Assembly (NCBI RefSeq): GCF_030770395.1
Contig: NZ_CP132480.1
Coordinates: 3,427,801 to 3,491,800 of the forward strand
Direction of reading: 5' to 3'
Source of the DNA: Telluria beijingensis
GTDB lineage: Bacteria > Pseudomonadota > Gammaproteobacteria > Burkholderiales > Burkholderiaceae_D
DNA: 64,000 bases
Shown: positions 30,586-34,308 of the stretch, in pieces
Layout: each line of letters starts with the position of its first letter
Position numbering within the stretch: position 1 is the first letter of the stretch
The notes under the pieces: model-generated
Told to the model about the DNA's origin: nothing
Database searches by the model: none
The model's input: the letters and a program-made list of their open reading frames with translations, nothing else
Position numbers and translations under genes: made by a program

Positions 30586-30614
30586 ATTATAGTGTTTGCC
30601 CAAGAATGCGATAA
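30586..30614 (-). promoter_or_regulatory. Candidate promoter of the S9-SNF2 transcript
   Basis: On the minus strand, TATAAT (30586-30591) is preceded at 17-bp spacing by TTATCG (30609-30614), a weak -35 match. The divergent hemE gene also shows a -10-like GATAAT at 30610-30615, so the two promoters would overlap in this 91-bp intergenic region. Confidence 0.5.
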
Positions 30615-30646
30615 TAGCCGTTTCCCTATCGACGCCCTTGTCAGCC

Positions 30647-31729
30647 ATGCCACAATTTGCCCCGCTCCAGAACGACACCTTCCTGCGTGCGCTGTTGCGC
30701 CAGCCGACCGACTACACCCCGGTGTGGCTGATGCGCCAGGCGGGCCGCTACCTGCCGGAATACCGCGCCACCCGCGCGCGCGCCGGCTCGTTCCTGGGGC
30801 TGGCGAAGAATCCCGACTACGCCACCGAAGTCACCTTGCAGCCGATCGACCGCTATCCGCTGGACGCGTCGATCCTGTTCTCGGACATCCTGACGGTGCC
30901 GGATGCGATGGGCCTGGGCCTGTATTTCGCCGACGGCGAAGGCCCGAAATTCGAGCGTCCGCTGCGTACCGAAGCCGAAGTGAATGCCCTCGCCGTGCCC
31001 GACATGGCCTCGCTCGACTACGTGTTCAAGGCCGTGACCTCGATCCGCAGCGCGCTGAATGGCCGCGTGCCGCTGATCGGTTTCTCGGGCAGCCCGTGGA
31101 CGCTGGCCTGCTATATGGTCGAAGGCGGCGGCTCGCGCGAGTTCCACACGGTGAAAAAGATGCTGTACAGCCGTCCCGACCTGATGCACCGCATCCTCGA
31201 CATCAATGCGCAGTCCGTGACCGCCTACCTGAACGCCCAGATCGACGCCGGCGCCCAGGCCGTGATGATCTTCGATTCCTGGGGCGGCGCGCTGGCCGAT
31301 GGCGCCTACCAGGCATTCTCGCTGGATTACATGCGCAAGATCGTGGCGGGCCTGAAGCGGGAACACGACGGCGTGCGCATCCCCGCCATCGTGTTCACCA
31401 AGGGCGGCGGCATCTGGCTGGACGAGATGGCCGACATCGGCGCCGATGCGCTGGGCCTGGACTGGACCGTGAACCTGGGCCGCGCGCGCAGCCTGGTGGG
31501 CGACCGCGTGGCGCTGCAGGGCAACCTCGATCCGGCCATCCTGTTCGCCGAGCCGGAGCAGATCCGCGCCGAGGTCGAGCGTTCGCTCTCCGCCTACGGC
31601 GCGCCGTCGAACGGCCATGGCCATGTCTTCAACCTGGGCCACGGCATCTCGCAATTCACGCCGCCGGAATCGGTCAGCGCCATGGTCGAGGCCGTGCACG
31701 GTTTCAGCCGCAAGCAGCGCGCCGCCTGA
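30647..31729 (+). CDS. hemE: Uroporphyrinogen decarboxylase
   Basis: A 360-aa HemE, which removes four carboxyl groups from uroporphyrinogen III to give coproporphyrinogen III in heme synthesis. The N-terminal [19 protein letters not shown] carries the essential arginines and the central [16 protein letters not shown] and FDSWGG motifs are intact; HVFNLGHGI is near the C-terminus. ATG 30647 gives a normal length; an in-frame TTG at 30596 is possible but would extend the protein over the promoter. Downstream is an unusually long 548-bp gap to priA. Confidence 0.96.
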
Positions 31730-31785
31730 GTCATCCCCCACGACTGGCGGCGCCTCTTGACAAGACCGCCAGCTCGACCCCTCAC

Positions 31786-32268
31786 TTGTTCACAACTTCC
31801 TAAAAGCGGGTAAAAATTCCTGTGGACATCTCGGAACTTGCTGAATCAAGCTACAAGGCTGATTTATAAGCGTTTTTTGATTCGGTATCCTGCTGAGTGC
31901 CTCGCGCACCACAAGGTTGTCCAGTAGAATTCAGCCATGTCGGGCTCCTTGTTCACAAAGTTATCAACAGACGATTTGGCAATGGGGAAAAGTGCTTGGT
32001 TTACCGTGACTTAGCGCGCTTCTTCAAGTGTTGCCTTAAGTTTGTGATGCAATGCGGCGAGTTTTCCACGTCCGGCACCCTACTTATGCACAACGCGGGA
32101 AATGTGCCCCAGCTTGTTAACAGCTCTCAAGACGAATATGCAAGCTATTGATTCATAAGCGAAAAATTGTCTTGAATTTGAGAATTATCGATAATGACTT
32201 GATCTAACGTAAACCTTTGACAGGGTCAAGTCCCACGCTATTCACAAAGTTTTCCACAGATTTGCACA
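31786..32268. promoter_or_regulatory. Cluster of DnaA-box-like motifs in the hemE-priA intergenic region
   Basis: The 548 bp between hemE and priA (31730-32277) hold no convincing gene and are more AT-rich than the flanks. Against the DnaA box TTATNCACA I see one perfect copy (32084-32092). Five copies have one mismatch: 31786-31794, 31949-31957, 31961-31969, 32238-32246 and 32250-32258. All six read in the plus direction, and two pairs are spaced exactly 12 bp start to start. Further copies with two mismatches occur at 32062, 32114 and 32260. A perfect 12-bp palindrome ATTATCGATAAT (32184-32195) lies in an AT-rich stretch (32150-32220) between the boxes. The layout resembles a replication origin or another DnaA-controlled region. 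Confidence 0.6.
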
Positions 32269-32277
32269 GGGCCCAGA

Positions 32278-34308
32278 TTGTCCACCAGCACCGATAGCAC
32301 CCGCGCGCACTGCTTTCTCGAAGTCGTGCTCGATACCCCGCTGAACAGCAGCTTCGATTACCGCTGGCCTTGCCAACCGGGCGAGGAGCCGCTGCCCGGC
32401 CAGCTGGCGCTGGTGCCGTTCGCGCGGCGCGAGGTGATGGCCCTGATCGTCGCGGTCAAGCACGAGAGCGCGATCGCGCCCGACAAGCTGAAAGATGCGC
32501 TGGCCGTGCGCAGCCAGCTGTCGCCCCTGCCGGAACGCTGGATCGCCCTGGCGCGCTTCGCCGCCGATTATTATCAACGGCCGCTGGGCGAGGTGGCGCT
32601 GCCCGGCCTGCCCAAGAACCTGCGCGTGCCCAAGACCGTGGCGCTGGACCGCGCCCTCAAGAAGCTGGGCAAGCTCGATCCGCAGCAGGATGCGACGGCG
32701 GTCGACATGCCGGTGCTGAACGCCGCCCAGCAGCAGGCCGCCGATGCCATCGGCGGCGCCGCCGGCTTCACGCCGCTGCTGCTATGGGGCGTGACCGGCA
32801 GCGGCAAGACCGAGGTCTACCTCCAGGCCTGCGCCCAGGTCTTGCAACGCGACCCGCAGGCGCAGATCCTGATCCTGGTCCCCGAGATCAACCTGACGCC
32901 CCAGCTGGAAGGGAATATCCGGGCCCGCTTCCCGGGCATGATGCTGGCGACCCTGCACAGCAGCCTGTCCGAGGGCGAGCGCATGCTGCACTGGCTGGCC
33001 GCGCACGGCGGCCAGGCGCGCATCGTGCTCGGCACCCGGCTGGCGATCCTGGCCTCGATGCCGAACCTGCGCCTGATCGTGATCGACGAAGAGCACGACC
33101 CTTCGTACAAGCAGCAGGAAGGGCTGCGCTATTCGGCGCGCGACCTGGCCGTGTGGCGCGCCCACCAGCTGGGCATCCCGATCGTGCTGGGCTCGGCCAC
33201 GCCGTCGCTCGAATCCTGGCATCACGCGCGTTCGGGGCGCTACCGGCGGCTGGACCTGCGCGAGCGCGCCGTGCGCGACGCCGTCCTGCCCAAGGTGCGC
33301 CTGGTGGACATGGAGCGCGACCGCGCGCGCGACGGCTTGACGAGCGAGATGCTGGCGGCACTGCGCGGCCGCCTGGAACGCGGCGAGCAATCGCTGCTGT
33401 TCCTGAACCGGCGTGGCTATGCCCCGGTGATATCTTGCGATGCTTGCGGCTGGATCAGCAACTGCACCCGCTGCACCGCCTTCATGGTGCTGCACAAGCC
33501 CGAGCATCGGCTGCGCTGTCATCACTGCAGCCTCGAATTGCGTATTCCGCGCCATTGCCCCACCTGCGGCAACGTCGACCTGCAGCCGCTGGGACGCGGC
33601 ACCCAGCGCGTGGAAGAAGGATTGCAGGCGCTGTTCCCCGAGGCGCGCATCCTGCGCATCGACGCCGACTCCACGCGCCTGAAGGGCAGCGCGCAAGCCG
33701 CCTTCGACAGCGTGCACCGGGGCGAAGTCGATATTCTGATCGGCACGCAGATGGTCGCCAAGGGCCACGACTTCAAGAAGCTGACCCTGGTCGGGATCCT
33801 GAACCCGGATACCGCGCTGTTCTCGCAGGACTACCGCGCCAGCGAGCGCCTGTTCGCGCAGCTGATGCAGGTGGCGGGACGGGCGGGGCGGGCCGGCCTG
33901 GCATCCGAGGTGCTGGTGCAGACGCGCTATGTGCAGCATCCGTTGTACGGCGCGGTGATGCGCCACGACTACGAGCGCTTCGCCGGCCAGTTGCTGGACG
34001 AGCGCCAGGAGGCCGGCCTGCCGCCCTTCATGTACCAGGCCTTGCTGCGGGCCGAGGCGAAGGAGCTGCCGATCGCGATCGACTTCCTGGAAGCGGCGCG
34101 CGACTGCCTGCCGGCCGATGGCATCCTGATCAACGACCCGATCCCGATGACGATGACGCGGGTCCACAACGTGGACCGCGCCCAGCTGCTGGTCGAGTCC
34201 AGCTCGCGGCCTGCGCTGCAGGCCTTCCTGCGGGTCTGGGTCGAGCAGCTGCGGGCCATGAAGGCCCGCGTCAAGTGGTCGCTCGAGGTCGACCCGCTCG
34301 ATATTTAA
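32278..34308 (+). CDS. priA: Primosomal protein N' (replication restart helicase PriA)
   Basis: A 676-aa PriA, which recognises stalled forks and loads the replisome. The N-terminal DNA-binding domain (CFLEVVLDTPLNSSFDYRW...) is followed by Walker A GVTGSGKTEVY (K177), DEEH at 270-273, and the zinc-binding region with paired cysteines CDACGW, CTRC, CHHC and CPTCG between motifs IV and V, then the helicase C lobe with GTQMVAKGHDF. The start is TTG 32278: AGGG at 32268-32271 is well placed, and the PriA N-terminus begins right here with no ATG available. The DnaA-box-like motifs end about 10-20 bp before the start. The stop codon overlaps the stop of the convergent PEP-CTERM gene. Confidence 0.93.
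   Translation: MSTSTDSTRAHCFLEVVLDTPLNSSFDYRWPCQPGEEPLPGQLALVPFARREVMALIVAVKHESAIAPDKLKDALAVRSQLSPLPERWIALARFAADYYQRPLGEVALPGLPKNLRVPKTVALDRALKKLGKLDPQQDATAVDMPVLNAAQQQAADAIGGAAGFTPLLLWGVTGSGKTEVYLQACAQVLQRDPQAQILILVPEINLTPQLEGNIRARFPGMMLATLHSSLSEGERMLHWLAAHGGQARIVLGTRLAILASMPNLRLIVIDEEHDPSYKQQEGLRYSARDLAVWRAHQLGIPIVLGSATPSLESWHHARSGRYRRLDLRERAVRDAVLPKVRLVDMERDRARDGLTSEMLAALRGRLERGEQSLLFLNRRGYAPVISCDACGWISNCTRCTAFMVLHKPEHRLRCHHCSLELRIPRHCPTCGNVDLQPLGRGTQRVEEGLQALFPEARILRIDADSTRLKGSAQAAFDSVHRGEVDILIGTQMVAKGHDFKKLTLVGILNPDTALFSQDYRASERLFAQLMQVAGRAGRAGLASEVLVQTRYVQHPLYGAVMRHDYERFAGQLLDERQEAGLPPFMYQALLRAEAKELPIAIDFLEAARDCLPADGILINDPIPMTMTRVHNVDRAQLLVESSSRPALQAFLRVWVEQLRAMKARVKWSLEVDPLDI

Follow-up and report, generated by a model that had tools for sequence, protein, structure and literature searches.

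A conserved DnaA-box and IHF-type module between hemE and priA of Burkholderiales, and its likeness to the DARS and datA sites of Escherichia coli

Does a cluster of DnaA boxes next to hemE mark a replication origin, or a site that regulates DnaA? The question is raised by the hemE-priA gap of Telluria beijingensis, located in a window of 64,000 nucleotides (NZ_CP132480.1, positions 3,427,801 to 3,491,800 of the forward strand) in which hemE (TIGR01464), a 548-bp gap and priA (PRK05580/TIGR00595) follow one another. In Caulobacter, the origin lies beside hemE, and an earlier note on this DNA considered an origin at the gap and, as a fallback, a DnaA-titrating or priA-regulating site. The origin reading was not supported, while the fallback came close: the gap contains a conserved arrangement of DnaA boxes and a match for integration host factor (IHF), and the core geometry of the E. 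coli DnaA-reactivating sequences (DARS) was found in 50 of 78 equivalent gaps. At the level of sequence, there is good support for a DnaA-IHF regulatory site. More specifically, we consider it fairly probable that the gap contains a DnaA-IHF loop site derived from a DARS, in which the recharging of DnaA has been lost and which would more likely bind, titrate or inactivate DnaA.

A box-IHF-pair module in the hemE-priA gap

The comparison was based on the best 80 of 588 named PriA loci, among which Massilia timonae is the nearest named record to the window locus. hemE was readable upstream of priA in 77 of these Burkholderiales-type loci which, together with the window, give 78 gaps of 289-1191 bp; each gap ends at the first aligned PriA residue rather than at a proven start codon. 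Three loci were excluded for an unreadable hemE: L175, which contains the module described below; L181, without a module in the 4 kb upstream; and L197, which has just 120 bp upstream of priA and is too short.

The conservation in related genomes that the earlier note had named as a check on the boxes was found throughout. All 78 gaps contain two head-to-tail DnaA boxes 12 bp apart, for which shuffled sequences give a chance expectation of at most 0.05 per gap, and the spacer inside this pair is almost always AAG. The pair is the last part of a module that consists, in this order, of a single distal box, an IHF-type site and the pair itself. We scored 126 pairs, leaving aside those with less than 165 bp of upstream gap DNA. 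Of the 126 modules, 123 have a distal box that deviates at no more than one position, and an IHF-type site, defined purely as a sequence match with at most one mismatch to the consensus YAANNNNTTGATW, is located 95-99 bp 5′ of the pair in 115. Where both are present (113 modules), the distal box lies 55-57, 65-69 or 75-79 bp from the IHF-type site, with no distances between these classes. The distance from the IHF-type site to the pair is nearly fixed, the distal-box classes are about one helical turn apart, and the sequence between the elements is little conserved. Such a near-fixed length with free sequence and steps of about a helical turn would fit a loop bent between two points of contact: with the DNA curved by IHF, DnaA bound to the distal box could meet DnaA bound to the pair. 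Binding of DnaA to these sites is very likely and that of IHF likely, and the looping itself is probable.

The module is present once in 32 gaps, twice in 44 and three times in two. Among the 78, three clear copies are found only in Herminiimonas fonticola, the third copy counted in Janthinobacterium 337R being due to two overlapping matches.

When both strands of all 80 loci (770 kb) were scanned, 119 of the 121 modules were located in the gap and two outside it, and all were on the priA strand. This confinement is in favour of transcriptional control, with DnaA and IHF regulating priA or the read-through from hemE and any effect on DnaA activity being incidental, and two promoter-like matches on the + strand of the gap region also favour such a role. 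Nevertheless, the priA-nearest pair lies anywhere between about 40 and 314 bp before the first aligned PriA residue, whereas the internal spacing of the module is nearly fixed, and tandem copies of box, IHF-type site and pair exceed, in our judgement, the needs of a simple promoter. We therefore regard transcriptional control as an unlikely primary role. A module-like + strand match outside the hemE-priA gap was also observed on an uncultured Oxalobacteraceae contig (L172:2232).

The window contains two modules in tandem, whose parts and flanking genes are as follows:

31786..31794, + strand: module 1, distal single DnaA box TTGTTCACA, 163 bp 5′ of pair 1
31852..31864, - strand: module 1, IHF-type site, degenerate (2 mismatches), 97 bp 5′ of pair 1
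31949..31957, + strand: module 1, first box of the pair, TTGTTCACA, at the position of DARS box III
31961..31969, + strand: module 1, second box of the pair, TTATCAACA, at the position of DARS box II
31975..31983, - strand: module 1, position of DARS box I, unrecognisable (4 mismatches)
32084..32092, + strand: module 2, distal single DnaA box TTATGCACA, perfect, 154 bp 5′ of pair 2
32141..32153, - strand: module 2, IHF-type site CAAGCTATTGATT, 0 mismatches, 97 bp 5′ of pair 2
32238..32246, + strand: module 2, first box of the pair, CTATTCACA
32250..32258, + strand: module 2, second box of the pair, TTTTCCACA
32264..32272, - strand: module 2, position of DARS box I, unrecognisable (8 mismatches)
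31730..32277, + strand: hemE-priA gap with the two tandem modules
30596..31729, + strand: hemE, uroporphyrinogen decarboxylase, flank
32278..34308, + strand: priA, replication restart helicase, flank

The six boxes that the earlier note had reported are thus in place on the + strand; the box at 32084 is perfect, and each of the other five has a single mismatch. The two pairs with starts 12 bp apart (31949/31961 and 32238/32250) are likewise present. Its estimate that the cluster exceeds chance also held: six boxes compare with a mean of 0.6 in dinucleotide shuffles of the gap, none of 60 of which reached six. Since the whole window contains 18 boxes for 12.3 expected, the excess is local to the gap. 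In box density, the gap ranked third, behind a cluster beside mnmG and another at xseA, in the 1.664 of 6.017 Mb scanned, a non-random sample because the mnmG-side and xseA stretches were chosen for boxes already seen. Chromosome-wide, perfect TTATNCACA occurs 28 times, as compared with 51 times for a reversed-letter control pattern.

Likeness to the DARS and datA sites of E. coli

Sites that recharge or inactivate DnaA have been worked out mainly in E. coli. Based on published positions (DARS1 at 0.81 Mb, DARS2 at 2.97 Mb and datA in the glyVXY-queG gap), we took the bioD-uvrB, rppH-mutH and glyVXY-queG regions of E. coli K-12 as DARS1, DARS2 and datA, respectively. In both DARS regions, DnaA boxes are located at 0, +12 and, reversed, +26; the DARS1 core lies 5′ of uvrB, and that of DARS2 is flanked by rppH and ygdT, with mutH about 0.5 kb away. 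PMC5742627 describes identical box spacing in DARS1 and DARS2, with box I reversed, as well as an IHF site in DARS2, and PMC10380432 describes the head-to-head boxes I and II as functionally essential.

We scored a DARS core (boxes III-II-I) wherever boxes at 0, +12 and reversed +26 had at most four mismatches in total and at most two per box. Most of the gaps with this geometry belong to an Oxalobacteraceae-like group, a split of our own (L132-L183, L202, L209 and the window) that is not a taxonomic one: 47 of its 53 gaps have the core, as do three of the remaining 25. Counted by module, the reversed +26 box (at most two mismatches) accompanies 73 of the 101 pairs of the group. Because the pair and the reversed box reproduce the E. 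coli DARS core in those 47 gaps, we infer recharging there; in such relatives, the site would release ADP from DnaA, leaving DnaA recharged, and we marginally favour DARS activity in the relatives that keep box I.

The core is widespread in the order also at the level of whole genomes. With at most one mismatch, the pattern was found in 54 of 80 genomes, while a reversed-pattern control was found in none of the 80; with two mismatches, it was present in 16 of 16 one-contig genomes, for a total of two control matches. PMC4245941 states that the DARS2 core is conserved specifically among the gamma-proteobacteria related to E. coli, and PMC10380432 reports DARS-like sequences in many proteobacteria. 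In the open-licence PMC literature, judged by titles and the starts of abstracts, we found no paper that treats hemE-priA as a DnaA site. The Burkholderiales would offer a positionally conserved DARS-type site in which the far box moves in steps of about a helical turn, copies occur in tandem, and box I is present in some natural variants and missing from others, which makes it a ready test of how DARS-type sites work.

Like DARS1 and DARS2, the site is intergenic and close to a gene of DNA repair; like DARS2, it has IHF-type sites near its modules, the match in the window being perfect in copy 2 and having two mismatches in copy 1. It differs from both E. coli sites in that its modules are in tandem and the window copies lack box I. 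The datA region contains a 12-bp pair without a reversed box. Its layout, in which one IHF site separates a box pair from a further box, is also that of window copy 2 and, with a weak IHF-type site, of copy 1, the correspondence of individual boxes being our own assignment. The polarity is reversed, as the pair is 5′ of the IHF site in datA and 3′ of it in the window, relative to the direction of the IHF site; the locations also differ, datA lying by glyVXY and queG and the window site between hemE and priA.

Absence of box I in the window lineage

The same-genus set comprises 30 loci, including that of the window, from 30 of 37 matched genomes. Two modules are present in all 30. In copy 1, box I is perfect in 12 of the 30 loci and has at least three mismatches in the other 18; in copy 2, it has at least three mismatches in all 30. 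In more divergent relatives, the blocks of the gap that match are mainly the box pairs.

As box I is gone from both window copies, canonical recharging is not expected there, and a claim of DARS membership fails for the window; we lean towards a loss of DARS activity in this lineage. The parts that remain resemble the datA set with reversed polarity, which makes titration or inactivation of DnaA the better guess: the box-IHF-pair loop would titrate or inactivate DnaA, as does datA with similar parts. A more general possibility, which we put forward only tentatively, is an evolvable switch in which the same IHF-bent loop would recharge DnaA with box I and hold or inactivate it without. On this doubtful extension, species of a single genus would stand on both sides, as indicated by the two states of box I in copy 1.

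Several observations weigh against a DARS-derived loop site. The DARS-core test gave no core in the window gap, where both copies fail at box I, and a search of the whole genome of the window gave five cores, none of them at hemE-priA. The IHF-type site of copy 1 is degenerate, and the -97 and -164 offsets of the IHF-type site and distal box were not found in the E. coli DARS regions, including DARS2. Outside the Oxalobacteraceae-like group, the reversed +26 box accompanies only 3 of 25 modules, so that the ancestral site may have lacked DARS function. The plain box count of some short gaps outside this group does not exceed chance, the counts of L189 and L195 being reached in 8 of 60 shuffles. 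The distance classes partly track lineage and copy and, as the gap sequences also share descent, the spacing may have shifted independently only a small number of times; in Advenella, Paraburkholderia and Pollutimonas, a few of the raw distances of the distal box fall off the classes, and the fit of a helical period is similar from 10 to 11.5 bp (R 0.57-0.68).

As for the five cores found elsewhere in the genome, two with 0 mismatches flank a UvrD/PcrA-like helicase gene, and three lie in an array 5′ of xseA. Both helicase-side cores (chromosome 2803594-2806108) are accompanied by an IHF-type site at -97 and one of them, in addition, by a distal box at -163, which indicates that the module was re-used at least once in this genome. 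Additionally, a strict module scan of the 1.664 Mb gave three matches and none for the reversed control; two are those of the hemE-priA gap, and the third, located by the uvrD-like gene, shares the -97 and -163 offsets and has box I in addition. Same-strand core matches 1.1-3.4 kb apart were also seen in four other genomes (G027, G129, G107 and G164). The array upstream of xseA (chromosome 3130970-3131850) consists of DARS-core-like units, five pairs of which were scored and a sixth seen by eye. The -97 IHF-type site was not found in the units of this array, the DNA of which is matched in each of 22 same-genus relatives, and clusters of three to seven same-strand core matches were also observed in G129, G107, G027, G061 and G164.

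These cores bear on two alternatives. The presence of DARS cores elsewhere in the same genome, the loss of box I from both copies and the degenerate IHF-type site of copy 1 would be in keeping with a decaying relic, DnaA control having shifted to the uvrD-like and xseA loci while the gap is losing its sites. A relic would hardly account for the retention of both modules in every same-genus locus, or for the matching blocks of more divergent relatives being mainly the box pairs, and we consider it very unlikely. The location of cores by the uvrD-like gene and xseA, and by uvrB and mutH in E. coli, places several of them near repair or restart genes, which adds to what favours a role in the control of priA. 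Under the tentative reading of an evolvable switch, DARS-type sites by uvrB, mutH, priA, the uvrD-like gene and xseA would, moreover, couple the initiator's state with genes of repair and restart.

The origin question and minor features of the locus

The hemE-priA gap is probably not a replication origin, and as chromosomal oriC, alone or as a second origin, we give it hardly any credence. Its DnaA boxes, its AT-rich sequence and its hemE neighbour, as in Caulobacter, would suit an origin. Nevertheless, neither the DnaA-trio-like motif ACTATCA nor TTGTATACA was found in the gap, whereas both motifs are present three times at a locus beyond mnmG. Exact parS sequences occur at only two places in the genome, both on the mnmG side, at 4.3878 Mb, just past mnmG and by rsmG, parA-like and parB-like genes. 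The oriC candidate that these features define (chromosome 4389.68-4390.78 kb) is located about 2 kb past parS and about 930 kb from the hemE-priA gap, flanked by genes for an alpha/beta-hydrolase-like protein and a methylthioadenosine/adenosylhomocysteine nucleosidase. It contains three repeats, spaced by about 340 bp, that each combine a DnaA box with ACTATCA and TTGTATACA. Like the hemE-priA gap, it has TTATCCACA-type boxes in a non-coding stretch; unlike the gap, it has the trio-like/TTGTATACA repeats and parS close by. As the earlier note stated, dnaA is outside the window, about 140 kb distant, at 3.600 Mb; the oriC candidate is about 790 kb from dnaA. The case warns that a cluster of DnaA boxes next to hemE does not have to mean an origin.

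In the first 400 kb of the relative G107, from another genus of the family, the cumulative GC skew falls past hemE-priA (107 kb) to a minimum at 350-370 kb, beside mnmG (376 kb), and then rises. For G061, of which 400 kb were read, the skew has several local minima; the deepest, at 5.41-5.42 Mb (mnmG), is shallow. For the chromosome of the window, 20 kb out of every 100 kb were sampled, and 3.37-3.79 and 4.34-4.44 Mb were covered completely; its skew is too weak and mixed to favour either locus, and a local turn at 3.49-3.51 Mb, the nearest to the window, coincides with neither hemE-priA nor mnmG. In 13 of 16 one-contig genomes, those in which priA and mnmG were both located, the distance from the gap pair to mnmG is about 13-31 kb in four, which is in favour of an origin at the gap, about 184-474 kb in eight, and 926 kb in the genome of the window.

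Other possible features of the locus were also considered. Between 31600 and 32400, an RNA element was rejected for want of any Rfam match at E up to 1, and no terminator was found. A plasmid origin was rejected, as a distant-mode search of the plasmid collection gave no similar DNA. The perfect 12-bp palindrome that the earlier note had seen, ATTATCGATAAT, is present with its start at 32184; it was dropped, being missing from the M. niastensis gap. Finally, a reversed box-like sequence, TGTGGACAT, with two mismatches by eye, is located at 31822-31830, outside the module geometry and within a block that is matched by several same-genus relatives.
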